Shown piece by piece: positions 1 to 14,286 of a stretch of DNA of 37,505 nt. Every line of letters begins with the position of its first letter. Position 1 is the first letter of the stretch. Source of the DNA: Planctomycetaceae bacterium. GTDB lineage: Bacteria; Planctomycetota; Planctomycetia; Planctomycetales; Planctomycetaceae. The stretch covers positions 1 through 37,505 of the forward strand of contig OMIV01000148.1 in assembly GCA_900299185.1 (NCBI GenBank). Direction: 5' to 3'. The position numbers were made by a program, and so were the translations under genes. The notes beneath the pieces were generated by a model, which was not told the origin of the DNA, made no database searches, and saw nothing but the letters and a program-made list of their open reading frames with translations.

Positions 1-57
1 CCACCGAGATCTACACCTAAGCCTTCGTCGGCAGCGTCAGATGTGTATAAGAGACAG
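1..57 (+). other. Untrimmed Illumina Nextera i5 adapter (sequencing artefact)
   Basis: Positions 1-16 are the 3' part of the Illumina P5 flow-cell sequence. Positions 17-24 (CTAAGCCT) match the i5 index known as S508. Positions 25-57 are the Nextera read-1 transposase adapter ending in the mosaic end AGATGTGTATAAGAGACAG. Genomic sequence starts at 58. Read on the minus strand, the adapter encodes the tail VSYTHLTLPTKA followed by a stop, an artefactual C-terminus familiar from metagenomic protein sets. Confidence 0.98.
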
Positions 58-448
58 CCACGATGCCCAGCCACTTCGCGCGTTGCTGACGGAGCGGTTC
101 GAATGACTTCGACTTCCCGACCAACGCCGAGGCGATGAAGAACACCACAAAGGCCAGCAGGATCTTGGTGCCAACCATCATGTGCCACAGCTTGTCGCCT
201 TTATGTGCTCCCATCAGCCGCATGTAGTTGTAGAAGCCGCTGAGCAAGAACAGCCCGATGCCGCCATGCACGAAGCGCTTCCAACGATTCAAGATCCCCG
301 CTCGCAGTTGATCATGAGCGTCGTTGGGGAGTTGCGAGGCCACGGGCATTAAGACGAAACGCATGAAGATCGAACCGCCGACAAGAGCGATCGCTGTTCC
401 AACATGAGCAAAGCGCGAAGCGGCATCTAACAGAAGCTGAGGTTCCAT
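58..448 (-). CDS. CopD-like integral membrane protein, 3' end cut off by contig end
   Basis: The frame reads a small multi-helix membrane protein. It has an N-terminal helix (RFAHVGTAIALVGGSIFM), a second around GGIGLFLLSGFYNYM and a third around MMVGTKILLAFVVFFIASAL. Overall it resembles the CopD/DUF-type four-helix proteins that often sit near cytochrome oxidase genes. I chose the Met at 448; a Met at 511 would add 21 residues that look non-conserved, and neither has a strong Shine-Dalgarno sequence. The last genomic codon is the Val at 59-61. Everything after it, including the apparent stop at 17-19, is adapter, so the true C-terminus is unknown. It lies downstream of the oxidase subunit III-like gene, separated by a hairpin repeat at 525-574. 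The function is not established. Confidence 0.7.
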
Positions 449-524
449 GAAGACGAATCCAAGTGGGGAGAAACAAGAGGTTGTGAGGCGTGCGCTTTGA
501 CGGCTAGACATTCGAGGCGCAGAT

Positions 525-574
525 CTCAGCCGCGGAGTGACTGAGCGACGTAGGCGAGTCGCTCTGCGACTCGC
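525..574 (-). repeat. 50-nt double-hairpin intergenic repeat, copy 1 (degraded)
   Basis: This 50-nt block matches the reverse complement of 14205-14254 at 46 of 50 positions. The half at 554-574 forms a perfect 8-bp stem (GCGAGTCG/CGACTCGC, loop CTCTG). The half at 525-545 has lost pairing through changes at 530 and 538. The 8-nt spacer CGACGTAG corresponds to the palindromic CTACGTAG of the other copy. It lies between two minus-strand genes. Confidence 0.85.
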
Positions 575-604
575 TTTACTCGAAATGTATGGCTCGAAGA
601 CGCA

Positions 605-1369
605 CTAGCAGGTCGCTCGGCATACCTGATGATCCATCAGAAGTTTTGACGAGCGGGACCGTTCGATGTCCGGCGGGATGATAGAGCCAATTGCTCGGAC
701 GCGTACTTCGTTCGATGTCCAATCATTGGGTTCGTTGTGCAAGATCGAAGAGGCCAGCCACAACGCTCCCATGATGATGAACCACAAGATGCCTAATGCG
801 TGCCAGAACCACGCACAGAAGATGACGCCCCATGAGTATTCATGGTCGTAGCGATTGGCGACGGCTCTCAGCAGAACAAAGACGACAAACAGCAGCGCGA
901 CGACAAAATGCACGCCGTGCATGACGACAAAGGCAAAGGCTCCGCCACGAACTCCCATCAGGCTGGCGATCTCGCGTTGTGCCAGAAAGCACCAGAGGCC
1001 GTAAGTCTGAGTCGACACGAAGGCGATGCCACAGACGAGTGCTCGCACGAGGTTCTGGCGAAACAACCTTTGGCGTTCGATTCGCACCCAGCGGCATGCA
1101 GCTTCCAGATACCAACTGCCGAAGATGAGCAGCCCGGAACTCACGCCGAAGGCCGGGGGAAACACGAGCCGGTCGCTGACTCCATGAAAGTGGCTGTTGG
1201 CGATCAAGGCCCAGGCAATGACGGCCGCCAGGCTCAACCCCAGGAGCGACAAGCCAAAGAACACCGGTGCGAATCGGCTGGGCTGTTCGAGAAATCGAGC
1301 CCACCGAGAACCCCGCAAGTCCGTGTTGTCGTTGTCATCTACAAGTGGAGTCACGACCTCTCCCGGCAA
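605..1369 (-). CDS. Cytochrome c oxidase subunit III-like protein
   Basis: This 254-residue protein has a hydrophobic profile of about six to seven helices. The pattern fits subunit III of haem-copper oxidases, the core subunit without redox centres that stabilises the proton-pumping complex in the membrane. The most telling part is the C-terminal half: FVVMHGVHFVVALLFVVF (family pattern GxHGxHV) and then YSWGVIFCAWFWHALGILW (family pattern YWHFVDxVW). Translation appears to start at TTG 1369, seven bases after an AGGA that overlaps the stop codon of the upstream gene (1379-1381), so the two are likely coupled. The last 30 or so residues are polar and not typical of the family. No subunit I or II gene is in the window. 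An alkyl-quinol oxidase or NorE-like subunit is the main alternative. Confidence 0.72.
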   Translation of the reverse strand: MPGEVVTPLVDDNDNTDLRGSRWARFLEQPSRFAPVFFGLSLLGLSLAAVIAWALIANSHFHGVSDRLVFPPAFGVSSGLLIFGSWYLEAACRWVRIERQRLFRQNLVRALVCGIAFVSTQTYGLWCFLAQREIASLMGVRGGAFAFVVMHGVHFVVALLFVVFVLLRAVANRYDHEYSWGVIFCAWFWHALGILWFIIMGALWLASSILHNEPNDWTSNEVRVRAIGSIIPPDIERSRSSKLLMDHQVCRATC

Positions 1370-1378
1370 TCCCTTGTC

Positions 1379-2281
1379 CTATTCGTCGTCTGCGGCGACG
1401 TCTTCGCTGTCATCATCGTCATCGGAAACGTCAGCGACCTTCTCTGTGAAATAGCCCAACGCAATCAGAGCTTCTAGCTCGGCGACGATTTTGGCATCGA
1501 CCTTGATCCAGGGAATTGTAGTCGTGTTAGACGAGGATGACTTGCCTTCGTTGTCGACGGTGATCGTCACGGTTTCGATGACAGCAAAGTAAGATTCATC
1601 ACATGTCGGGCACGCGTTGACGGTCAATCTCAGGAAGCAGTTTGCTCCTGGGTAGTCTCGCACGCTGGCCAGTAAGAGATCGGCTCGACCGTCTTCCAAC
1701 TCATCTCGCATTTGCAGCGAGTCCTTCATTGAAAATGGATGCGGGGCGATCTTTTGAGTTGTGACTTGATCACAGTCCTCGCAAAACGGCGGCGGCGTGT
1801 CGAGCACGCTCATCATTGTGAAGAAGTAGATCGCACCGGCTTCAATGGCCCACAAGATCCACAACACAACGCCCGTCGGTGTGTACCGCTTGATGGACCA
1901 GACTCCGTTGTCAGAGATGAGTCCGATGATTCCCCAGAGGAAGGTTGGGTCTGGTGACAGTAACTCCCACTTCACGACGGCAACGACGTAAGCCCACCAA
2001 GCGGAGTAAAGAATGGCCGTAGCCGTCAGCAAACCGAGCAACATCGAGAAGGTCCAATTTCGAACCTTCAGCTTGATGAGCGTCGAACGGACCGCGTTAC
2101 CAACCATCGCAGGCACGAAGAACGCACCGAGAAAATTCACGTAGATGATCGGGTTGTAGAACTCGACCACACCGAACACGAAGCCGCAGATCGTTGCCAA
2201 AAAGATCGCGACGGCTGATCCCAAGACGAGCCCCAAAATGGGCACGGCTCCAGAGGGTTGGTAGTACCGAGTCTCGTCCAT
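1379..2281 (-). CDS. Four-helix membrane protein with two CxxC motifs and acidic tail, unknown function
   Basis: I do not recognise a family. The 300-residue product has four hydrophobic segments at about residues 13-40, 45-65, 77-103 and 137-160. A soluble C-terminal domain follows with CEDC (167-170) and CPTC (224-227), and the protein ends in a run of Asp and Glu (SDDDDDSEDVAADDE). Two CxxC pairs in a soluble domain suggest a zinc site or a redox pair, which is inference. I chose the Met at 2281 (MDETRYYQ); an upstream in-frame Met at 2362 adds a basic, unconvincing leader. It is the first gene of the minus-strand unit that continues with the oxidase subunit III-like gene nine bases downstream, so a role in that oxidase is plausible. 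Confidence 0.75.
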   Translation of the reverse strand: MDETRYYQPSGAVPILGLVLGSAVAIFLATICGFVFGVVEFYNPIIYVNFLGAFFVPAMVGNAVRSTLIKLKVRNWTFSMLLGLLTATAILYSAWWAYVVAVVKWELLSPDPTFLWGIIGLISDNGVWSIKRYTPTGVVLWILWAIEAGAIYFFTMMSVLDTPPPFCEDCDQVTTQKIAPHPFSMKDSLQMRDELEDGRADLLLASVRDYPGANCFLRLTVNACPTCDESYFAVIETVTITVDNEGKSSSSNTTTIPWIKVDAKIVAELEALIALGYFTEKVADVSDDDDDSEDVAADDE

Positions 2282-2667
2282 GCGTGGTGGTCCTCTCGAT
2301 GCGTTGCATTTCATGGAGTGGCGGCGAGCTAACCAAAACAACATCCGAATTGGAGATAGCACATCCGCTGGAAGCTAGCCGAGACCGTCCCTTTGCCCGA
2401 GGTGCCAGGGAACCTATCGCGTTCACTTCTTCAGCGCAAGGCTCTCGTTTGCGAATGCGCTCAAGCAGACTGCCAAGCACTCGACGTGAATCCGGCTCAA
2501 GTCTCTCAGCATCCGGCGTGGTCATGCAGATGAGCCGTCTTGGAAGGCTTTGTCGAGTTTCTCCGTTTGGCTGCTTACCGACTGATGCTCGGTTGCCGCT
2601 GCGAGTCTGGCTCTCCAGACTTCGAATCCGCATCTTTTCGATCGTCACACTCGATGGGCTTGCCAAC
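2282..2667 (+). other. Divergent intergenic region without a recognised gene
   Basis: These 386 bases separate the starts of two divergent genes and should hold both promoters. An open frame runs through on the plus strand, but its translation is Arg-rich and low in structure, so I do not read it as coding. A 7-bp stem with a 4-base loop (AGTCTGG-CTCT-CCAGACT) lies at 2604-2621, 46 bases before the plus-strand start. I see no clear -35/-10 pair. Confidence 0.5.
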
Positions 2668-3558
2668 ATGGTTTCAACTTTCGCGCTGTTGATGGTGTTG
2701 AGTTGCGGCCAGGCTCCTGATGACGTGCAGGACTTGCTGAAGAGCAAGACATACGGTGTCACTTGGAACGAGCCCGATGTACCCGACTCGCAGACCATCT
2801 TGGAGATCGGGACGGGCAGCGGTCATGGGCTTTCGATGCACTGGCTGCGGTTTCAACCGGGACCAGTGCATGTCGAAGTGTTTGCCGTCGAGTTTCAAGA
2901 AGAACGTAAGCCCTACACTTCCAAATGGCCGCCGGACAACACGCCCGTGACAGTTAAACGCGGGCTGATAACGAAGCCCGCCTACGACGTGTTACTCCAG
3001 AAGATCGCGTGGCTGCACTCCGCGAAGTTGGTTCAAAGGAAATTGAAGAACTCAGATGGATCGAGTGCTGACTTTTGGGTCTCGGTACATGCGACTTGGA
3101 AGATGGTGTCGCTGATCGATCTCGATTGGGCGGGCTATCAGACTTCCAGCGATGAGTACCTCTATGCTGTCCCGCGCGCGATCGGTGTGTTGGCCGCGAA
3201 GGCGACGAAGAACGCGGACTTCAAGAAGTACGAACTCACTGCCGCAGATCGTGAATGGGCACGTGGTCGCTTTGAACACGATTGGAAACGCAGCGACCAA
3301 CAGTCGAGCCATTGGTGGGTTCGCGAACGCTTGCTCGTCATCATTGGCTACGTCGGGAATGACGCTGTGCTGCCAACGCTCAAGAAGCTGTTGCAGGATC
3401 CACCGAAGAGTGAAAGTTCGGATGCCCGGTGCGTTTATCACGCCATCAACGCGGTCACGCGGCTGACAAAGAAGGACGTCCGCACTCAGCCCGTTGAAAG
3501 CATGGACCTCAAAGAGAATCGTTTGAAAGTCTTGGAACTACTCACTCAGAAACCTTGA
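2668..3558 (+). CDS. Putative lipoprotein with C-terminal HEAT-like segment, unknown function
   Basis: The product is about 296 residues if translation starts at ATG 2668. The start is chosen because it opens directly into a short hydrophobic stretch ending in VLSC, which resembles a lipoprotein signal with Cys13 as the lipidated residue. The n-region lacks the usual Lys or Arg, so a somewhat earlier start is possible; the frame is open back to 2194. The middle is polar with scattered aromatic residues. Near residues 225-270 there is a helical pair (VIIGYVGNDAVLPTLKKLL) typical of a HEAT-type repeat. The gene ends 26 bases before the start of the large dehydrogenase, so the two are probably one transcript. 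I cannot assign a function. Confidence 0.65.
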   Translation: MVSTFALLMVLSCGQAPDDVQDLLKSKTYGVTWNEPDVPDSQTILEIGTGSGHGLSMHWLRFQPGPVHVEVFAVEFQEERKPYTSKWPPDNTPVTVKRGLITKPAYDVLLQKIAWLHSAKLVQRKLKNSDGSSADFWVSVHATWKMVSLIDLDWAGYQTSSDEYLYAVPRAIGVLAAKATKNADFKKYELTAADREWARGRFEHDWKRSDQQSSHWWVRERLLVIIGYVGNDAVLPTLKKLLQDPPKSESSDARCVYHAINAVTRLTKKDVRTQPVESMDLKENRLKVLELLTQKP

Positions 3559-3584
3559 ACCCCTACTTCAGAGGAGATCTTCGA

Positions 3585-6500
3585 ATGCCGTTACGTCGCT
3601 CTGTCTTCGCGAGCTTTGCTGTGCTGCTCGCTAGTTCGATGGCGAATGCTCAGGCTGCTGAGCCAAAGTTCGATAGCAAGGTCGTCGGTCGTGACACCAA
3701 AGGGCAGAGTGTCCCGGTGAGTGTCGACATTAAGGGCGCGAAGAAGCTGTATCTCGTGGCGACCGATGGCGGTGATGGGTTCGGTTGCGACTGGGCTGAC
3801 TGGATTGAGCCGAAGCTCGTGGGAGCTAAGGGCGAGCAGAAGCTGACCGATCTCAAGTGGAAAGCGGCGAAGAGCGGCTTTGGCAGTGTCGAGATCAATA
3901 AGAATTGTGGTGGCAACGCGCTGAAGGTCGCCGGAAAGGCGCCGGAATTCGGTATCGGCACGCATGCAACCTCGGTCATCGAGTGGGATCTGCCGGAAGG
4001 GCATTCGTTCGAGAAGTTCACGGCCGTCGCGGCGCTCGATGATCAAGGGACCGCTCAAGGTTGCGGCTCGACGGTGCGGTTCCTCGTCTTCACCGATACT
4101 CCCGATGCGAAGTTCTTAGTCGCCTCGAACGGAGGTAGCCCGCAAGCCGGGATCGGAAGTCGCGAGGCCACCGACGCTGTTAAGGGGCTCGATGTTGCTG
4201 AGGGACTCGAAGCAACGCTCTTCGCGTCAGAAGCCAGCAAGCCTGCGATGCTTAATCCAACCAGCATCGACATCGACCATCTCGGACGCATTTGGGTTTG
4301 CGAAGTCGTGAACTACCGGCATCGCAATGGCGAACGTAAGGAAGGCGATCGAATCCTCATTCTCGAAGACACCAACGGCGACGGCGTTGGCGATAAGCAG
4401 ACGGTCTTCTATCAAGGCCACGATGTGGATTCGGCTCACGGCATTTGCGTGCTGCCGACTCCTTCGGGCAAAGGCACGAAGATCATCGTTTCGTGCGGCT
4501 CTGACGTCTTCTTTCTGCATGACGACGACGGCGATCTGAAGTCGGATCGCAAGCAATTGCTCTTCACGGGGATTGAAGGCACTCAGCACGACCACGGCAT
4601 TCATGCCTTCCACTTTGGTCCCGATGGCAAGCTCTATTTCAACTTTGGCAACTCGGGCCGCCGCATCAAAGACAAAGACGGCAAGCAGATTGTCGACATG
4701 TCCGGCCTCGAAGTGCATGACCATCGCAAGCCGTATCAAGAAGGCATGGTCTTCCGCTGCAACATGGACGGCAGCGAGTTCGAAACGCTCGGCTGGAACT
4801 TCCGCAACAACTGGGAGATCGCGGTCGACAGCTTCGGTTCGTTGTGGCAATCGGACAACGACGACGACGGCAACAAAGGCGTGCGCATCAGCTTCGTCAT
4901 GGAGTTCGGTAATTATGGTTATAAGGACGAGATCACCGGCGCTGGTTGGAACACACCGCGCACGAATCTCGAACAAGAGATCCCACTGCGCCACTGGCAT
5001 CTGAATGATCCAGGCGTGTTGCCGAACCTGTTGCAGACCGGAGCGGGTTCACCGACCGGCATCCTCGTGTATGAGGGCTCGTTGCTGCCCGAGAAGTTCC
5101 GCAATCAGGTCATCCACTGCGACGCGGGACCGAACGTTGTTCGAGCTTATCCCACTAAGAAGGCCGGCGCTGGCTACACCGCCGAGATCGAAAACATCGT
5201 CAGCGGTGCACGCGATAATTGGTTCCGACCATCGGACGTGTGCGTCGCTCCGGACGGATCGCTGTTCGTCGCCGACTGGTATGACCCCGGAGTCGGCGGT
5301 CACCGCATGGGCGACGCTGATCGAGGCCGCCTCTTCCGAGTCGCTCCGCCTAAGACTCCGTATGTGTCGCCGAAGGTCGATGTCAGCACGGTCGATGGTG
5401 CGATTGCCGCTTTGAAGAGTCCTAACGAAGTCACTCGTTATCTCGGTTGGACTGCGTTGCACGAGCAAGGTGCGAAGGCTGAGGCCGCTCTCACCGCCGT
5501 GTTTGAGAAGGACGCTAATCCTCGGATGCGTGCGCGTGCGATGTGGTTGCTCGGCAATATCCCAGGCAAGGCTCAAGCGATCGTTGATAAGGCCATCGTC
5601 GACAAAGACGAAGACGTTCGCGCTGCTGGATTGCGGTTGGCTCGTCGCCTGAAGCTCGATGTGTTGGCCGTCATCGAAAAGTTCCGAGACGCGCGCGACA
5701 CCTCGGCCGTTGTGCGTCGCGAGTGCGCGATTGCCTTGCGATACATCAAGTCCGAAAAGAAGCCGCAAGTGTGGGCTCAAGTCGCCAACACCTACGACGG
5801 CAACGATCGCTGGTTGCTCGAAGCTCTTGGTATCGGAGCAGGCAATGATTGGGACGCTTGTTTGGACGCGTATCTCAAGCAAGTGAATAACGTCATCACG
5901 ACCAAGCCCGCGCGCGACATCATCTGGCGTTCGCGAGCGGCTCAAACTCCGGCTCTGATCGCCAAGCTGCTCAGTGATTCGAGCGTGACCGCTGAAGAAG
6001 CTCCTCGTTATCTGCGAGCATTCGACTTCCTCAACAGTGATTCGAAGAACGACGCACTCATTCAAGTCGCGTTCTCTTCACTGGGCGACGACAAGAAGAC
6101 GCAGTTCGCAAACGCCGAAGCCATCGGTCGCTTGAAGGGCTTTGATGTTTCCAAGAACCCGCAGCAGAAGGCGGCTCTCAATCGAGTACTCAACGACCTG
6201 AAGGGAACCGCTCAGTTCCTGTCGCTCGTCGAGAAGTTCAGCGTCAATGATCGCTATGCGGACCTCGTGGCGTTGGCGTCGACCAAGGGCGATGAGCAAA
6301 TCGGGATCGATGCCGCTCGCGTGTTGCTCGGTAAAGGTGCCAAGGACTTGCTCGAGGCCGGCTTGAAGTCGACGGCTGACTTTGGTCGATCGGCCACGGG
6401 CCTGACGACGGCGTTGTCGAATACCGGTGATGGCGCCGCGGCGATGTTGCTGCTGCCCATCGTTCAAGACGAGAAGGCTCCTGCTGATCAACGCCGACAA

Positions 6501-7148
6501 GCCATCAAGGGCGCGACGCGGACCAAGCCCGGTGCCACTGCGGTCTTGAAGATGGCGGAAGCCAAGGCGTTCGACGACAGCTTCACTCCGGCGCTGGCCG
6601 CCGCATTGTCGACGGCCCCGCTCGATGCTGCTCAGCAAGCGAGTGTGTCAAAACTATTCCCCGCCCGGGCAGGCAAGGACTCCAAGCCGCTGCCGTCCAT
6701 CGGTGAACTCGCCAAGCTGAAGGGTGACAAGAACAACGGCCAGAAAGTCTTCGCGAGCCAACAAGCCAAGTGCAGCTCGTGCCATGTAGTGAATGGTCAA
6801 GGCAAAGAAGTCGGCCCGAACTTGTCCGAGATCGGCAGCAAGCTCAGCCGTCAGGCGTTCTTTGAATCCATCATCTTCCCGAGCGCCGCGATCAGCCATA
6901 ACTACGAGCTGTACTCGGCTGAATCGAAAGATGGCACGGTCTTCAACGGCATCATCATTAGTTCCACTGACGACTCGGTCACGCTCCGCAACGCCGAGTC
7001 GATCCAAAAGACAATCAAGAATGCCGACTTCGAAGGCCCACTGGTGAAGCAGAAAATCTCCATCATGCCCGCCGACATCGCGAAGCAACTCTCGCAAGAA
7101 GAAATCGTCGACGTCGTCGAGTACCTGACGACGCTGAAGAAGAAGTAG
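3585..7148 (+). CDS. PVC-type membrane-bound dehydrogenase with NPCBM-like, HEAT and C-terminal c-type haem domains
   Basis: This 1187-residue exported protein belongs to the large cytochrome-type dehydrogenases characteristic of Planctomycetes and Verrucomicrobia. The signal peptide is residues 1-22 (SSMANAQA). An NPCBM-like carbohydrate-binding module follows at about 30-190. A beta-propeller dehydrogenase domain spans roughly 200-590, with the markers GRIWVCEVVNYR, DRILILEDTNGDG and DVCVAPDGSLFVADWYDP. HEAT-like helical repeats fill about 600-1040. A haem-binding domain starts near 1045, with CSSCH at 1063-1067 and a probable distal methionine (SIMPADI) near 1165. ATG 3585 is preceded by GAGGAG at 3571-3576; a Met 30 bases earlier would spoil the signal peptide. 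Such proteins are thought to oxidise carbohydrates or alcohols at the cell surface and pass electrons to cytochrome c. The substrate is unknown. Confidence 0.92.
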   Translation: MPLRRSVFASFAVLLASSMANAQAAEPKFDSKVVGRDTKGQSVPVSVDIKGAKKLYLVATDGGDGFGCDWADWIEPKLVGAKGEQKLTDLKWKAAKSGFGSVEINKNCGGNALKVAGKAPEFGIGTHATSVIEWDLPEGHSFEKFTAVAALDDQGTAQGCGSTVRFLVFTDTPDAKFLVASNGGSPQAGIGSREATDAVKGLDVAEGLEATLFASEASKPAMLNPTSIDIDHLGRIWVCEVVNYRHRNGERKEGDRILILEDTNGDGVGDKQTVFYQGHDVDSAHGICVLPTPSGKGTKIIVSCGSDVFFLHDDDGDLKSDRKQLLFTGIEGTQHDHGIHAFHFGPDGKLYFNFGNSGRRIKDKDGKQIVDMSGLEVHDHRKPYQEGMVFRCNMDGSEFETLGWNFRNNWEIAVDSFGSLWQSDNDDDGNKGVRISFVMEFGNYGYKDEITGAGWNTPRTNLEQEIPLRHWHLNDPGVLPNLLQTGAGSPTGILVYEGSLLPEKFRNQVIHCDAGPNVVRAYPTKKAGAGYTAEIENIVSGARDNWFRPSDVCVAPDGSLFVADWYDPGVGGHRMGDADRGRLFRVAPPKTPYVSPKVDVSTVDGAIAALKSPNEVTRYLGWTALHEQGAKAEAALTAVFEKDANPRMRARAMWLLGNIPGKAQAIVDKAIVDKDEDVRAAGLRLARRLKLDVLAVIEKFRDARDTSAVVRRECAIALRYIKSEKKPQVWAQVANTYDGNDRWLLEALGIGAGNDWDACLDAYLKQVNNVITTKPARDIIWRSRAAQTPALIAKLLSDSSVTAEEAPRYLRAFDFLNSDSKNDALIQVAFSSLGDDKKTQFANAEAIGRLKGFDVSKNPQQKAALNRVLNDLKGTAQFLSLVEKFSVNDRYADLVALASTKGDEQIGIDAARVLLGKGAKDLLEAGLKSTADFGRSATGLTTALSNTGDGAAAMLLLPIVQDEKAPADQRRQAIKGATRTKPGATAVLKMAEAKAFDDSFTPALAAALSTAPLDAAQQASVSKLFPARAGKDSKPLPSIGELAKLKGDKNNGQKVFASQQAKCSSCHVVNGQGKEVGPNLSEIGSKLSRQAFFESIIFPSAAISHNYELYSAESKDGTVFNGIIISSTDDSVTLRNAESIQKTIKNADFEGPLVKQKISIMPADIAKQLSQEEIVDVVEYLTTLKKK

Positions 7149-7173
7149 GTTTGGCTAGCCAAAGTTGGAACAC

Positions 7174-7300
7174 AGATAAAGACAAGACTGAGGTGGCTGT
7201 CGTAAGCATTGCCTCTTTTACCTCTAGCTTGGACGGCCTGATTGCAGGTCGATCATTAGAAGTATCTTTCTTGTCTGTGTTTCATCTGTGGCTTATGGCC
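7174..7300 (+). repeat. Imperfect direct repeat, copy A
   Basis: This 127-base stretch aligns with 7660-7786. The best-conserved blocks are AGATAAAGA at the left end, GGCTGTCGT, GATTGCAGGT followed by TCATT, and CTTGTCTGTGTT at the right. One compensating insertion/deletion pair is needed in the middle, where similarity is lost for about 20 bases. It ends just upstream of the small lipoprotein gene at 7319. Confidence 0.7.
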
Positions 7301-7318
7301 GCTTTCATGGACCTCGAA

Positions 7319-7579
7319 ATGAGAAGGCTCGCTGCATTGGTGTGTCTGCTAGGCTGCGCGACAACTCCTGACAATCTTGGTGTCCTACGTGAACGTGGCG
7401 TCGCGGTGCCGATTGAAGAAGTTCCGAAGGCTGTAATTGATGGCTTCGAAAATGGCAGCGGCGGAAATCAGATCCTGAGCACAGAACGAACAAGTAGCGG
7501 CTTCTACCGATTGGAGACTCGTGATGGCTCGGTCTTGTTCTTCGATGAGTCTGGCAAATACGTTGGCCGGATTATGTAA
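7319..7579 (+). CDS. Small putative lipoprotein with PepSY-like fold
   Basis: This is a short protein of 86 residues. MRRLAALVCLLGC forms a compact lipoprotein signal with a good LLGC lipobox, so Cys13 should be lipidated. The mature part (VPKAVIDGFENGSG...GFYRLETRDGSVLFFDESGKYVGRI) has the helix, strand and hairpin pattern of PepSY-like domains, which are small periplasmic domains often involved in inhibition or binding. I chose the Met at 7319 because the frame upstream is repeat sequence (7174-7300) and reads as nonsense. No partner gene is evident. It sits between two copies of an imperfect direct repeat, so it may have arrived or been rearranged with them. Confidence 0.6.
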   Translation: MRRLAALVCLLGCATTPDNLGVLRERGVAVPIEEVPKAVIDGFENGSGGNQILSTERTSSGFYRLETRDGSVLFFDESGKYVGRIM

Positions 7580-7659
7580 CTCATATTCGCTTAAATTGGA
7601 CGCGGCATCTCGGATGCGAATTGGTGTTTTGAACTACGAATGAAACACTGATGGTGCAG

Positions 7660-7786
7660 AGATAAAGATCTGGCTGATGCGGCTGTCGTTATTATTTCTA
7701 CTATTTCAGAGGCTGTAATGTCTCGATTGCAGGTAGGTCATTGGAACGTACCTCTCTTGTCTGTGTTCGATCAGTGGCAAATGACC
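7660..7786 (+). repeat. Imperfect direct repeat, copy B
   Basis: This is the counterpart of 7174-7300 and the same length. It ends about 40 bases before the first readable codons of the decayed GxxExxY gene. Similar 'CTGTGTTCATCTGTGGC'-type strings are, from memory, common next to GxxExxY genes in distant bacteria; this has not been checked here. Confidence 0.7.
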
Positions 7787-7823
7787 TCTTCGGCATTCAA
7801 GGGAGTAAGTGATGGTGTTCTGA

Positions 7824-8180
7824 CATGGCGACAGCACCGAGCAGATCATCGGAGTAGCCTTTGAGGTCCATCGCGTTCTTGGTTACGGCTTTCTCGAAAG
7901 CGTCTATCTGAAGTCGATGCAAGTTGAGCTTATTCGTCGCGGCCTTAACTGCAAACTCGAAGAGCCCGTTCGAGTGATCTACAAGGGCGACGATGTCGGC
8001 AAGTTCGAGTCGGATCAGCTCGTCAACGAATTTGTGATCGTCGAACTAAAGGTGGCCATGGAATACCTGAAAGCCGACGAAGCACAGTGACTTAACTTGT
8101 TAAGAGCTACCGGCATCAAGGCGGGTTTGCTGGTCAACTTCGGTCGTGAAAAAGTCGAACTTAACCGGTTGGTGTTCTGA
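7824..8180 (+). pseudogene. Decayed GxxExxY family gene
   Basis: The frame reads EQIIGVAFEVHRVLGYG, then FLESVY, which is the GxxExxY signature of this family of about 125-residue proteins of unknown role. It continues with VIVELKV and GIKAGLLVNFGREKVE, both typical of the family. Two lesions are visible. No in-frame start codon exists, since a TGA at 7821-7823 precedes the first family residues and the ATG at 7825 is in another frame. A TGA at 8088-8090 also interrupts the usual EAQLLN segment; a single TTA-to-TGA change would explain it. The stop at 8178-8180 is where the family normally ends. The call is a pseudogene unless TGA is a sequencing error. Confidence 0.82.
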
Positions 8181-8212
8181 TCTAATCCGCGCGATTGATT
8201 CATGGAGGGTTC

Positions 8213-9769
8213 ATGGTTCGGCAGGGATTGTTGGTTTGTTTGTTGTTATGCGGGCTTGGCTCGGTGTGGGCTCAGGATGCGGGCGAGTCGGGCATGTTGA
8301 AGGTGGCTCGCGGTCGGTTTGAACTCACGGCTGACGAAGTGGCGGTGGTGCGGCGAGTGGGAGATGAGTTACGGAGCGAAGATGCTCTGCCGTTGCTTTC
8401 GATTCGCGCGGATGTTGTGGCGTTCCTGTGTAAGAACCGTGACTCGTTAAGCGTTGTGCCGACGCGAGGGTTGGTCTTTGAGAACGTCGTTATCAACGGC
8501 TCTTTGGATCTGAGCTTCGCGAAGCTGGCGGTGCCGCTCTCGTTTTCGAACTGTCAGTTCGATCGCAATGCCGGGCGACTTTCGCTGCGGCAAGGCAATT
8601 TTCTCTCGATCACCTTCAGTCATTGCAGTGACTTGCCGGGCATCAATGCTCGTGGCCTAAGCGTTGATCACAGCTTGATCTTCGAGTCTCAATGTCTCGG
8701 AGAGATTGACCTGAAGAATGCCGATATCGGCAACGATCTCTATTTCGAAGGAGCCGAGCTGAAGGTCTCGGATGCGGCCGTTCGAAGTTGCATTTATGCC
8801 CGCAACGCTCGCATTAGTGGCGACGTGATTTTGGACCGAGCGACTGCCAATGGTCGCATCGACCTGCAAGGCGTCACGATTGGTGGAATGTTCTCGGCTC
8901 ATGATGCACGGTTTGAACTCGCTGCAGAGGGCACTTCTTCCGACAAGCAAGTTGTGCTGGATCTGGCGGGAACAACGATCGGCCGCGACTTCGATTTGGA
9001 CAACACGCTTGTTGGAGGCCAATTGAAACTCGCCGATGCCGACGTCACGAAGTCCGTGCGACTTCATCGGCTTTCTCAAGGCAGTCGTCCGTCGATCGAT
9101 CTGGCGGGGCTCAATTGCAGTCGCTTGTCTGTCGATGCCACCGCGCGGCCATTGTCGGGTAATCTGCGGCTGCATGGCTGTGTTTATTCTGACATCCATA
9201 TCGTGGATCCTGGAGAGCCAGAGACCGAGACCTACCTCAATTGGGTTCGACTTTCGGGGCCGGATCAGTTTTCGGAACAGCCTTATGAGTTCCTCGCCGG
9301 GGTTCTTAAGAAGCAGGGCAAGGACGATGTCGCTCGAGCCTTGTTGATCGCCAAGGTCGAAGACAAGCCGACTCGGTCGCTCGTTGATGCGTTGGTTCGG
9401 CAGCTCGCGTGGATGGTCGGCTATGGGTATTCGCCATTGCGTGCTGTGTGGTTGGCGTTGGCTGTGATCTTGCTGGGATTCGTCGTTTTCAAAGGTGCGT
9501 ATCGACGCGGGCTTTTAGTCGTGAAGGCCAACAATGCCCCGGTGAAATTGAAGACGCCCAACCTGACCTTGTTGATGTATTCGGTCGACGTCTTCGTTCC
9601 TCTGGTCGACTTCGGGGTTGGTCCAGCATATGTCCCCGGCAAAGTTGATACGGGCATGGAAGCTCCCGAAGTGACGCTGTTCCGCATCTATTATTGGTTC
9701 CATGTCGCGGCGGGCTGGTTGATCTGCACGGTCGCGGTCGCTGGTCTGACGGGGCTCGTGCGAGTGTAA
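8213..9769 (+). CDS. Exported beta-helix-like protein with two C-terminal membrane helices
   Basis: The 518-residue product starts at ATG 8213, after GGAGGG at 8204-8209, with a signal peptide ending near VWAQ. Residues 80-310 consist of short repeating hydrophobic and polar runs such as DLSFAKLAVPLSFSNCQF, EIDLKNADIGNDLYFEGAEL and RIDLQGVTIGGMFSAHDARF. This pattern is expected of a right-handed beta-helix, close to pentapeptide-repeat proteins but with longer coils. Two membrane helices follow, at about 407-427 (LRAVWLALAVILLGFVVF) and 494-518 (FHVAAGWLICTVAVAGLTGL). Similar proteins are sometimes annotated as membrane-associated oxidoreductases, but I see no cofactor motif, so I leave the function open. 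It begins a run of three exported proteins on the plus strand. Confidence 0.8.
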   Translation: MVRQGLLVCLLLCGLGSVWAQDAGESGMLKVARGRFELTADEVAVVRRVGDELRSEDALPLLSIRADVVAFLCKNRDSLSVVPTRGLVFENVVINGSLDLSFAKLAVPLSFSNCQFDRNAGRLSLRQGNFLSITFSHCSDLPGINARGLSVDHSLIFESQCLGEIDLKNADIGNDLYFEGAELKVSDAAVRSCIYARNARISGDVILDRATANGRIDLQGVTIGGMFSAHDARFELAAEGTSSDKQVVLDLAGTTIGRDFDLDNTLVGGQLKLADADVTKSVRLHRLSQGSRPSIDLAGLNCSRLSVDATARPLSGNLRLHGCVYSDIHIVDPGEPETETYLNWVRLSGPDQFSEQPYEFLAGVLKKQGKDDVARALLIAKVEDKPTRSLVDALVRQLAWMVGYGYSPLRAVWLALAVILLGFVVFKGAYRRGLLVVKANNAPVKLKTPNLTLLMYSVDVFVPLVDFGVGPAYVPGKVDTGMEAPEVTLFRIYYWFHVAAGWLICTVAVAGLTGLVRV

Positions 9770-9802
9770 GAGTTAGTCCGCACTCCAAACTGAGAGGCAA
9801 GC

Positions 9803-10759
9803 ATGAACCGCGTCGTCACGCTCGTTGGCATCTTCCTATTGTCGTTGTCATCTGCTTCTGCCGGAGAGAACTTGCTCGGACTTCCGGCTTCAAGAGATCC
9901 CAAGTCGCCCGGAGCCGTGGTGCTGCATGGTGGCGGTCGAATCACTGAAGATGTCTTTAATCGCTTCGTGGAACTTGCGGGGGGACGGCAGGCTCACATC
10001 GTTTTGGTTCCGTCGGCAGGTTTTCGAGTTGGAGATTACGACAGCGAGAAAGAGTTCCTGGCTGCTGTGGAGTATCGCTATGCGTCTTGGCCGAGTTTGA
10101 AGTTGTCGGGGCGCATTCGACAGTTTCAGTTCCTCTACACCGATGACCCTGAAGACGCGTACGATCCGAACTTTGTGAAGCCATTAGAGACTGCAACCGG
10201 AGTGTGGTTTACGGGCGGAACTCAATTGCGACTTAACTATCGCTTCGTTGGCCATCATCCCGAGCAGACTCGCTTTCAGAGGGCGCTGCAGGATGTCGTC
10301 GCTCGTGGTGGAGTGGTGGGTGGAACATCGGCAGGACTGGCTGCGCTGCCCGAAGTCATGACGCTTTGGGAAGAACGAGACTTCGATGGAGCGCCAGCTA
10401 ATGCGGTCGCGGCTCATGGTTTTGGCATCTTCAAGAACGCGATTGTCGAACAGCACTTCGATGCTCGCAGCGGGCGTCTCGAACGGTTCACCGGCTTACT
10501 GCGCGACTCTGCTCAAATAGACAAACTCACGGGGCGACTGAGATCGGGCGAGCGAATGCTGGGCATCGGCGTGGAAGAGCGAACGGCTTTGATTGCTCGC
10601 GACGATCGGTTCGAAGTCTTGGGCGATGGTGCGGTGCATGTCTTCGTGAAGTCACACGGTGGCCGCACGATTCATTGGCATGAGCTGGCTCCAGGCGAGA
10701 CGGCTCAACTGCGTCGCGATGCAGGATTAGTTCGCGAAGAAGTACGTTTGGAGCGGTGA
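9803..10759 (+). CDS. Exported cyanophycinase-like S51 serine peptidase
   Basis: This 318-residue protein has a signal peptide (MNRVVTLVGIFLLSLSSASA) and then a complete peptidase S51 domain. GTSAG at 174-178 carries the predicted nucleophile Ser176. It is preceded by the family motifs VLHGGGRI and WFTGGTQLRL and followed by IVEQHFDARSGRLERF, which matches the conserved QHF...R..RL region of cyanophycinases. These enzymes are homodimers that cut multi-L-arginyl-poly-L-aspartate into beta-Asp-Arg. The signal peptide places this one outside the cytoplasm, as in the extracellular type used to feed on cyanophycin from other cells. No cyanophycin synthetase is in the window. A general role against other beta-aspartyl peptides is possible. 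It follows the beta-helix gene by 33 bases. Confidence 0.85.
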   Translation: MNRVVTLVGIFLLSLSSASAGENLLGLPASRDPKSPGAVVLHGGGRITEDVFNRFVELAGGRQAHIVLVPSAGFRVGDYDSEKEFLAAVEYRYASWPSLKLSGRIRQFQFLYTDDPEDAYDPNFVKPLETATGVWFTGGTQLRLNYRFVGHHPEQTRFQRALQDVVARGGVVGGTSAGLAALPEVMTLWEERDFDGAPANAVAAHGFGIFKNAIVEQHFDARSGRLERFTGLLRDSAQIDKLTGRLRSGERMLGIGVEERTALIARDDRFEVLGDGAVHVFVKSHGGRTIHWHELAPGETAQLRRDAGLVREEVRLER

Positions 10760-10852
10760 GTTCATGGCGTCGGCCAAGTCGTTCCTTAGTTCCTCAACTA
10801 TGTGAATCGAGCTGTCGCGGCGCGCGAATGCAGTTCAACGGAGAATCTCAAG

Positions 10853-12982
10853 ATGAGTCGATTCAAGTTCGTAACGTGGCTGGCGGCGCTGTGTGCTGGC
10901 GCGAGCATCGTCGAAGCTCAAGAGCCCACGGGCGAGCTGGCGACCAAGCTCGCAGGAGTGAAGTTCGAACTCTATGCGCCGGGGCCGGGATACTCGGAAG
11001 GGCCGACATGGCGAATGGGTGACGTCTTCTTTTGCAGTGGCGCACTCTTGCGAATTGACGCTCAGCGGAATGTTTCGAAGTTCCTTGAGATCAATCCGGG
11101 AGGCACGGTGCTCAAGGCCGATGGGCACATGCTGATTGTCGACAACAAGTACAAAGCCGTGCTCGATCTGGCTCCGGACAACAAGGTCCGCGTGGTGGCC
11201 GAGTTGATTGGGACGCTGCCGTTGCGAGGACTCAACGATCTCACGATTGATGCACGCGGCAATGTGTATTGGTCGGATCCAGAAGGCTCGTCGGCGGCGA
11301 AGCCTGTTGGCGATATCTATCGAGTACGACCCGATGGACGAGTCGAACGCATTGGCGGCGGACTCGCGTTTCCGAATGGGCTCGATGTCGATCCCGCCAG
11401 CAAGTTCTTGTACGTCATCGAATCTCAGTCGAAGAAGATTCTGCGTTATGCGTTGCCGGGCGATGACGACATCCTCGGCAAGCCCGATGTCTTCTACGAC
11501 TTGGGCGGATCCGGCGGAGATGGGTGTGCGTTCGACGCGGCGGGCAACTTGTGGGTCACCGACTTCCATCGTCCTGAAACAGGCAAGGGACGCATCACCG
11601 TTCTTAGTCCCGAGGCCAAGGTGTTGGCCTACTTGCCGTTGCCGAGCATGGTCGTCAGCAACATCGCGTTTGGTGGTGAGAATCACGACGAGATCTTTTG
11701 CACGACGGGTGATCCTCCTGGCGTCTTTCATGCCAAGGTGGGAGTACCGGGTTTCAAAGGTCATCCCGGAAAACCGATGTCGTTCGTGCGCGAGTTAAAT
11801 GTCGTCGCGTTGAAGACGCATCCCGATGCCGCTGTTTTGAAGCAAGTGGCATCGATTGCCGCGAAGGCCAAATTGGACGGCAAGGCGCTCGATGCCGAGT
11901 CGCGCCAAAAGATGGTCGAGCTGATCAACGGTCTTGGCGACGGTGCCCTCAAAGCTGACGTGCAAAAGTTATTACCTCAATGGGAGCAAGCAGCGGTTCG
12001 TCATGCTCGCGATGAAGTGCTGCTAGCCGAGGTCAAGCGGTTGGGAGGGAAGGCGACGCTCGAAGTCGTTGCTCCCGATTGGCTGCGGTCGATTGTTGGT
12101 GATTCCGAATTGAACTCGTTCGCGAGGATTGTGGAACTCGATCTCAACGAACGAACCGACGGACATAAGGAGCCGACTCCGAAACCTCTCTCGGACCGAG
12201 TGACCGACGATTGGTTGAAACGCCTGGCCGATCAAACTGACCTCCGCAATCTGCAACTCTCGGGCACTGCCGTCACAAGTGCGGGGCTGGTGCATCTGAA
12301 GCCGCTCGTGAATTTGGAACGCCTCAATGTGTGTTTAACGGCAGTCAGTGATGATGGCTTCGAGCATCTGGCGGGGCTGACGAAGATGAAGCGGATGACG
12401 ATTTGCGCCTCGAAGATTACGGGTTCTGGTTTCAAGCATCTGAGCGGCATGACGCAGCTAGAGTCGATCAATTTGCATTCGGCACCCGCGAGCGATGAAG
12501 GGCTCGCCGCGATCGGCCAACTGAAAAGTTTGAAGCGCCTGGAGATTGTTCACACGCACGTGACTGACGCAGGACTTGCGCACGTCGCCAAGCTCAAGAA
12601 CTTGCGACAGTTGCATGTGCATGGTCCTGAAACGACGGCTGCGGCATTGCCGTTCGTGAGTGAGTTGCAGGAGTTGTACGAACTCGACGTCTACGACAAA
12701 GCCGCGAGCAATCAGACGATCGAGCAGATCGCAAAGCTGCCGAAGTTGCGAATGCTGATGCTCGTGAATGGCATCTTCGATGACGCGGGCGTGATGCAAT
12801 TGGCCAAAGTCGGAACGCTCGAAGCAGTGTCGCTGAGTTCGCCGCATGTGACTGATGCTTCAGTCGATGCCCTCTCGACGTTGAAGAGGTTACGGAAGCT
12901 GAATGTCGGCGGGACGAAGATCTCGGCTGACGGTAAAGCGAAGCTGAAGTTCGCACTGCCGAACGCCGAGATCACACCGTGA
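10853..12982 (+). CDS. Exported SMP-30/gluconolactonase-like propeller fused to leucine-rich repeats
   Basis: The product has 709 residues. ATG 10853 is preceded by GGAG at 10840-10843 and opens a signal peptide ending near VEAQ (20-23). Residues 30-320 form an SMP-30/gluconolactonase six-bladed propeller. The expected metal and substrate residues are present: Glu49 in YSEGP, Asn128 in GLNDL, Asn175 in FPNGL and Asp223 in GDGCAFD. A helical linker runs to about 430. Leucine-rich repeats fill about 445-705, with units such as LRNLQLSGTAVTSAGLVHLK and KRLEIVHTHVTDAGLAHVAK. The propeller family hydrolyses lactones with a divalent metal; the LRR part probably binds a protein or glycan. The fusion of an apparently intact lactonase site with a 260-residue LRR domain suggests a surface-bound enzyme, which is inference. 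Confidence 0.88.
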   Translation: MSRFKFVTWLAALCAGASIVEAQEPTGELATKLAGVKFELYAPGPGYSEGPTWRMGDVFFCSGALLRIDAQRNVSKFLEINPGGTVLKADGHMLIVDNKYKAVLDLAPDNKVRVVAELIGTLPLRGLNDLTIDARGNVYWSDPEGSSAAKPVGDIYRVRPDGRVERIGGGLAFPNGLDVDPASKFLYVIESQSKKILRYALPGDDDILGKPDVFYDLGGSGGDGCAFDAAGNLWVTDFHRPETGKGRITVLSPEAKVLAYLPLPSMVVSNIAFGGENHDEIFCTTGDPPGVFHAKVGVPGFKGHPGKPMSFVRELNVVALKTHPDAAVLKQVASIAAKAKLDGKALDAESRQKMVELINGLGDGALKADVQKLLPQWEQAAVRHARDEVLLAEVKRLGGKATLEVVAPDWLRSIVGDSELNSFARIVELDLNERTDGHKEPTPKPLSDRVTDDWLKRLADQTDLRNLQLSGTAVTSAGLVHLKPLVNLERLNVCLTAVSDDGFEHLAGLTKMKRMTICASKITGSGFKHLSGMTQLESINLHSAPASDEGLAAIGQLKSLKRLEIVHTHVTDAGLAHVAKLKNLRQLHVHGPETTAAALPFVSELQELYELDVYDKAASNQTIEQIAKLPKLRMLMLVNGIFDDAGVMQLAKVGTLEAVSLSSPHVTDASVDALSTLKRLRKLNVGGTKISADGKAKLKFALPNAEITP

Positions 12983-14204: not shown

Positions 14205-14254
14205 GCGAGTCGCGGAGCGACTCGCCTACGTAGCTCAGTCGCTCCGCGACTGAG
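14205..14254 (+). repeat. 50-nt double-hairpin intergenic repeat, copy 2 (intact)
   Basis: The element has two perfect 8-bp hairpins. The first is GCGAGTCG-CGGAG-CGACTCGC (14205-14225) and the second is CTCAGTCG-CTCCG-CGACTGAG (14234-14254). They are joined by the self-complementary octamer CTACGTAG. The loops CGGAG and CTCCG are complementary to each other, so the whole element is itself a near-perfect inverted repeat differing only in the outer three stem pairs. It sits exactly between the convergent ends of murG (14190) and the TPR gene (14287) and could stop transcripts from both sides, although no T-tract follows. Confidence 0.9.
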
Positions 14255-14286
14255 ATGTGCAAGTCACGTTTAGGCGTGTCGCAAAA

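Follow-up and report, generated by a model that had tools for sequence, protein, structure and literature searches.

Contamination of genome assemblies with synthetic sequence is known, and NCBI screens for it with VecScreen (PMC7218494, PMC10246020). In the parts of these two papers that were available, the contamination is mainly DNA of foreign species, and peptides coded by adapters are not described; the case reported here is of the same general kind, in that adapter sequence has likewise remained in deposited assemblies and given rise to false residues on translation. The closest described counterpart of the locus is the Illumina Nextera dual-index adapter pair S508/N712. The accessible part of PMC10528933 prints the joined P5-CTAAGCCT-Read1 oligo, labelled index S508, as well as the oligo of index N712, TCCTCTAC. 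The stretch of DNA analyzed here (the window) is an entire contig, C148, from 1 to 37505, and its first 57 bases are the same as P5-S508-Read1 at all 57 positions, but only the final 16 of the 29 nt of P5 are kept.

The initial annotation had read positions 1 to 57 as a P5 fragment, an index, and the Nextera mosaic end, and had proposed a comparison with the Nextera adapter sequences. Both the order of the elements and the identity with the S508 oligo, as far as PMC10528933 could be consulted, bear this reading out: P5, index, and Read 1 follow one another in the exact order of a Nextera read-through, closing with the mosaic end (Table 1). The 33-nt Nextera Read 1 sequence occupies 25 to 57, mosaic end included. 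With up to 3 mismatches allowed, the mosaic end matches once in the window, compared to 0.00 matches expected from 100 shuffles. Beyond 1 to 57, the window contains no 13-base word of P5, P7, either Nextera read sequence, or the TruSeq stem, and its right end is thus without such a remnant. It is virtually certain that positions 1 to 57 are an untrimmed Nextera library adapter. An adapter on a contig end is an ordinary artifact of a well-known kind and of low biological interest.

Table 1. Adapter-derived and genomic features at the left end of the window
Feature	Position	Strand	Basis
Last 16 of 29 nt of Illumina P5 flow-cell sequence, ccaccgagatctacac	1..16	+	sequence read; printed oligo
i5 index CTAAGCCT (S508), written ctaagcct	17..24	+	sequence read; oligo in accessible part of PMC10528933
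Nextera Read 1 specific part (tcgtcggcagcgtc; TCGTCGGCAGCGTC)	25..38	+	sequence read; oligo in accessible part of PMC10528933
Synthetic Tn5 mosaic end (agatgtgtataagagacag; AGATGTGTATAAGAGACAG)	39..57	+	sequence read; proposed transposase cut at 57/58
False TAG stop inside i5 index, from its reverse complement	19-17	-	ORF translation
False C-terminal tail VSYTHLTLPTKA coded by adapter	20..55	-	ORF translation
Genome/adapter hybrid codon (Ala)	58-56	-	base 58 plus two adapter bases
Truncated small membrane-protein gene, 130 genuine codons	59..448	-	ATG at 448; homologues

The same adapter recurs throughout the genome. A search that tolerated 2 mismatches, followed by inspection of every site, located the 19-nt mosaic end 84 times, on 74 of the 383 contigs; all 84 matches are exact, with 42 per strand, and the pattern read backwards has no match in the genome. 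All but one of these copies (83 of 84) lie at contig ends with the adapter facing outwards, with 20 to 74 bases from the end to the junction. By side, 42 are P5 and 40 are P7, and two were left unclassed by the script: a P7 copy on contig C369 that contains an additional base, and the copy on contig C38. The i5 index CTAAGCCT is found in 19 of 19 P5-side copies showing all 8 bases, and the i7 index TCCTCTAC is found in 18 of 18 fully readable P7-side copies. One index pair on both adapter types fits a single library, not a genetic element. The copies on contigs C328 and C345 (L344 and L351) extend through the whole of P5, and four P7 copies pass the whole adapter into 6 to 8 T, with a fifth passing into 2 T, as expected of a read running off its molecule.

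The sole nonterminal copy of the 84 lies at C38 45770-45796 (L008 1493-1519), where a P7-side fragment, GGGCTCGG, is followed by the mosaic end. It sits within an open frame of Asp/Gly-rich repeats and reads GGLGDVYKRQDGIDD in frame. Because the 53 bases past this copy duplicate sequence found shortly ahead of it, it looks like a chimeric read or a misassembly, not simple read-through.

On the minus strand, the ORF 511..17 enters the adapter and terminates in AVSYTHLTLPTKA and a stop, which falls inside the index as had been predicted. The longest ORF starts at 511, upstream of the start at 448 that is backed by homologues, and the final complete genomic codon is 61-59. The gene had been described as partial at 58-448; the truncation holds, but the genomic codons span 59-448, and base 58 belongs to the hybrid codon. 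A homologue search of 40 genomes gave matches in 19, the window's genome among them. The C-terminus is readable in the homologues of all 18 other genomes (one is split between two contigs, and its C-terminal piece was used), and all 18 run 19 to 60 residues beyond residue 130 to a stop, indicating that the window copy is truncated. Their continuation opens with a hydrophobic stretch. The nearest homologue, with 71% identity, has 162 residues, 32 of which (about a fifth) lie beyond the junction. What lies at 59-448 is therefore a genuine membrane-protein gene in truncated form; any gene call entering 1 to 57 in its frame would pick up VSYTHLTLPTKA. Its Pfam matches to Sdh_cyt (PF01127; 21.6 bits, curated cut-off 25.8) and CopD (PF05425; 20.5 bits, curated cut-off 32.1) are below threshold, so that the product is named here as a small membrane protein without a family; the full-length relative in genome G001 has no Pfam match at an E value of 0.001.

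The missing end of the gene was sought on the other contigs and not found, about 32 residues being too short for reliable detection. No second copy of the gene was found in the assembly: window positions 58-900 match only themselves over the gene, the other 40 matches being a dispersed repeat at the far side, and the full-length relative matches the window copy alone, plus three matches at E values of 0.2 to 0.4. When the window ORFs in 1-12000 were compared with stretches of three relatives, the truncated gene alone was matched, and gene order is thus no help in finding the missing end. In the nearest relative, a large protein is encoded two ORFs downstream of this gene; it is unmatched in the genome of the window, an empty result that is uninformative. 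Among phage records, the genomic stretch 58-1500 is unmatched.

Two further features lie near the gene. Its upstream neighbor (605-1369, minus strand) encodes a distant cytochrome oxidase subunit III-like protein that scores 23.0 bits with Pfam COX3, slightly under the cut-off of 23.8. The dispersed repeat, about 60 to 100 bases long, is located at 510-609 and 14205-14260 (minus strand) of the window and forms a strong hairpin, GCGAGTCGC-TCT-GCGACTCGC. It has at least 40 further matches in the genome at 78 to 94% identity (40 of 187 candidates were scored) and no Rfam match in the window at the gathering threshold.

The adapter is also present in many other records. The exact 41-mer consisting of index and Read 1 occurs in at least 116 stretches of a bacterial and archaeal genome collection, and among the matches listed, 118 of 118 sites are no farther than 36 nt from a contig end. 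The taxa among these listed matches include Clostridia, Eubacterium, Lactobacillus, Acetobacteraceae, Methylocystaceae, Betaproteobacteria, Deltaproteobacteria, and Streptomyces violaceorubidus; because a small number of sequencing runs account for most of the matches, the breadth of taxa weighs more than the count. In viral contigs, the 33-mer occurs in at least 120 stretches, and 117 of 120 sites among the matches listed are no more than 100 bases away from a contig end. Of the three others, one (L169 2154-2186) has the Read 1 adapter in the interior of the contig, next to a run of N, and two (L230 4061-4093 and L239 8-40) have it at the edge of the stretch while the contig extends further. 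Among the listed viral sites that show the 8 bases ahead of the 33-mer (n = 95), there are 11 different 8-mers, with CTAAGCCT in 5, indicating that the index varies by record and the remainder is constant. A megablast search with the 57 bases matched 30 of 50,697 phage records, two of them in the P5 and index part alone, and 8 of 72,556 plasmid records; at the settings used, no match was obtained among 20,395 E. coli complete-genome records. Within the phylum sample, 3 of 392 genomes carry the 33-mer, including the window's own. The two others are G047 and G253 (L165, L166, and L167); in L167 (G253:C213:3254-3286), the adapter lies in the interior of a contig of 5,843 bases, and the four bases ahead of it, TCGC, are those with which index S501 ends in PMC10528933.

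Translation of the adapter gives a small set of recurrent peptides. In this genome, 77 open frames with at least 60 genomic codons enter the adapter at the 83 terminal sites (C38 omitted), a mechanical count in which not all frames are genes. SYTHL appears in 25 of these frames, CLLYTS in 25, and LSLIHI in 26 or 27, according to how a match is defined (LIHI in 27). Ten of the 25 SYTHL frames contain SYTHLTLPT, and 8 end exactly in SYTHLTLPTKA and a stop; hence, a query with SYTHLTLPTKA alone finds 8 of the 77. That tail, singled out in the initial annotation, is indeed coded by the adapter, but its last two residues are not general: the P5-side tail common to different libraries is only VSYTHLTLPT, and KA and the stop derive from index S508. 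The two other frames of the P5-side adapter give LSLIHI and a stop and CLLYTSDAADE. Since the residues past the constant part encode the library index, the source library should be traceable from the protein sequence.

Annotated genes have incorporated these residues. Six genes were selected for an annotated feature beneath an adapter match, and their products were translated from the annotated coding coordinates instead of being taken from deposited protein entries. Adapter residues are present in five; the sixth, a tail fiber gene of Acinetobacter phage TAC1, was translated over part of its length and out of its own frame and is uninformative. The C-terminal end is VSYTHLTLPTICSV in a gene of phage ev207 (YP_009909638.1) and CLLYTSDAADD in a gene of Klebsiella plasmid NZ_CP040712.1 (WP_286497426.1). 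False residues stand at the start in phages Lambda_ev066 (VUF54226.1) and ev017 (VUF54202.1), as LSLRRQRQMCIRDS and MCIRDT, respectively, and VUF54226.1 is flagged as incomplete at that end. The 33-nt Read 1 adapter equals 11 codons and is open in four of six frames, so a copy lodged inside a gene lengthens the product by 11 residues, keeps the frame intact, and can escape annotation checks. An example is the terminase large subunit YP_009877169.1 of the P2-like Peduovirus P22H1 (NC_049386.1 1245-3053; L292), a RefSeq gene that contains the 33-base adapter in frame, read as CLLYTSDAADD, after which the frame runs on to its stop. Such RefSeq-annotated genes reading into the adapter, together with the contig-end position of the listed 41-mer sites, support the earlier proposal that other records with this tail are the same kind of artifact. 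Three adapter-coded peptides (20 to 24 amino acids) have no match in PHROGs, Pfam, or NCBIfam at E values up to 10, nor does a fourth (24 amino acids) that joins genomic residues to the adapter tail, short queries being a weak test. Literature searches for the tail and related peptides returned nothing on adapters; papers were matched through DVYKRQ only, some of whose abstracts mention transposition or transposomics cloning. Within the literature searches made, no description of these tails in print was found.

Could the left end of the window be the end of a natural Tn5/IS50-like element or an engineered transposon insertion at a contig edge? Tn5 ends are the source of the 19-nt mosaic end, and the junctions carry the Tn5 target preference, whose consensus is GNTYWRANC. 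When the nine genomic bases beside the adapter were scored at 7 positions, with the adapter sequence itself unused, the 84 junctions reached a mean of 3.29 of 7, versus 2.42 (standard deviation, 0.13) for random nine-base words of the same pieces, and 0 of 5,000 resamplings attained the observed score. The junctions look like tagmentation cuts; with a score of 3 of 7 for the window's own junction, the test applies to the 84 as a set and not to this single site. The mosaic end is, however, synthetic and different from both natural IS50 ends, and here it is joined to P5 or P7 with one index pair and runs off into T. Its copies are confined to contig ends at 83 of 84 sites, and of the 391 other genomes in the phylum sample, just 2 carry the 33-mer, meaning that it is not a lineage trait. 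We consider an element end or an engineered insertion extremely improbable. The adapter interpretation put forward in the initial annotation has withstood this comparison through the single index pair genome-wide, the contig-end position, the Tn5 site preference, and the run-off into T, and nothing on the opposing side favors another reading.

The peptide invites a different misreading, that VSYTHLTLPTKA is a genuine conserved C-terminus, since it recurs unchanged in unrelated taxa, at the end of 19 of the 75 frames with at least 60 codons that enter the adapter in the 116 listed stretches of the bacterial and archaeal genome collection. Against this recurrence, the same DNA gives different peptides in three frames across the 77 frames of this genome, the tail varies with the index, as the ev207 gene illustrates, and the homologues of the window gene continue otherwise in 18 of 18 cases, with their hydrophobic stretch. 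That VSYTHLTLPTKA is such a genuine C-terminus can be regarded as practically out of the question.

The untrimmed adapter probably reached the contig as follows. A Tn5 transposase carrying the Read 1 adapter would have cut the bacterial DNA at 57/58, and P5 with index S508 would have been attached by PCR. With an insert shorter than the read length, Read 2 would pass through the insert into the Read 1 sequence, the index, and P5. Such reads were probably left untrimmed, and the assembler, arriving at the end of coverage, may have retained the last of them as the first 57 bases of the contig.

The right treatment of the window is to trim positions 1 to 57 and label the gene as partial, and the same applies to the assembly's other adapter copies (84 in all). 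On balance, adapter-coded peptides seem to form a widespread but barely recognized class of false "conserved" ends and in-frame insertions in public protein sets. As a quick filter, protein databases can be screened for SYTHLTLPT, SYTHLRAHET, CLLYTSDAAD, CLLYTSPSPR, LSLIHI, and LSLIHISEPT, and in the other direction for MCIRD and DVYKRQ. The practical use of the finding is thus an exclusion rule for protein termini: identical protein ends across many phyla look conserved but are adapter, and the rule avoids this false reading.
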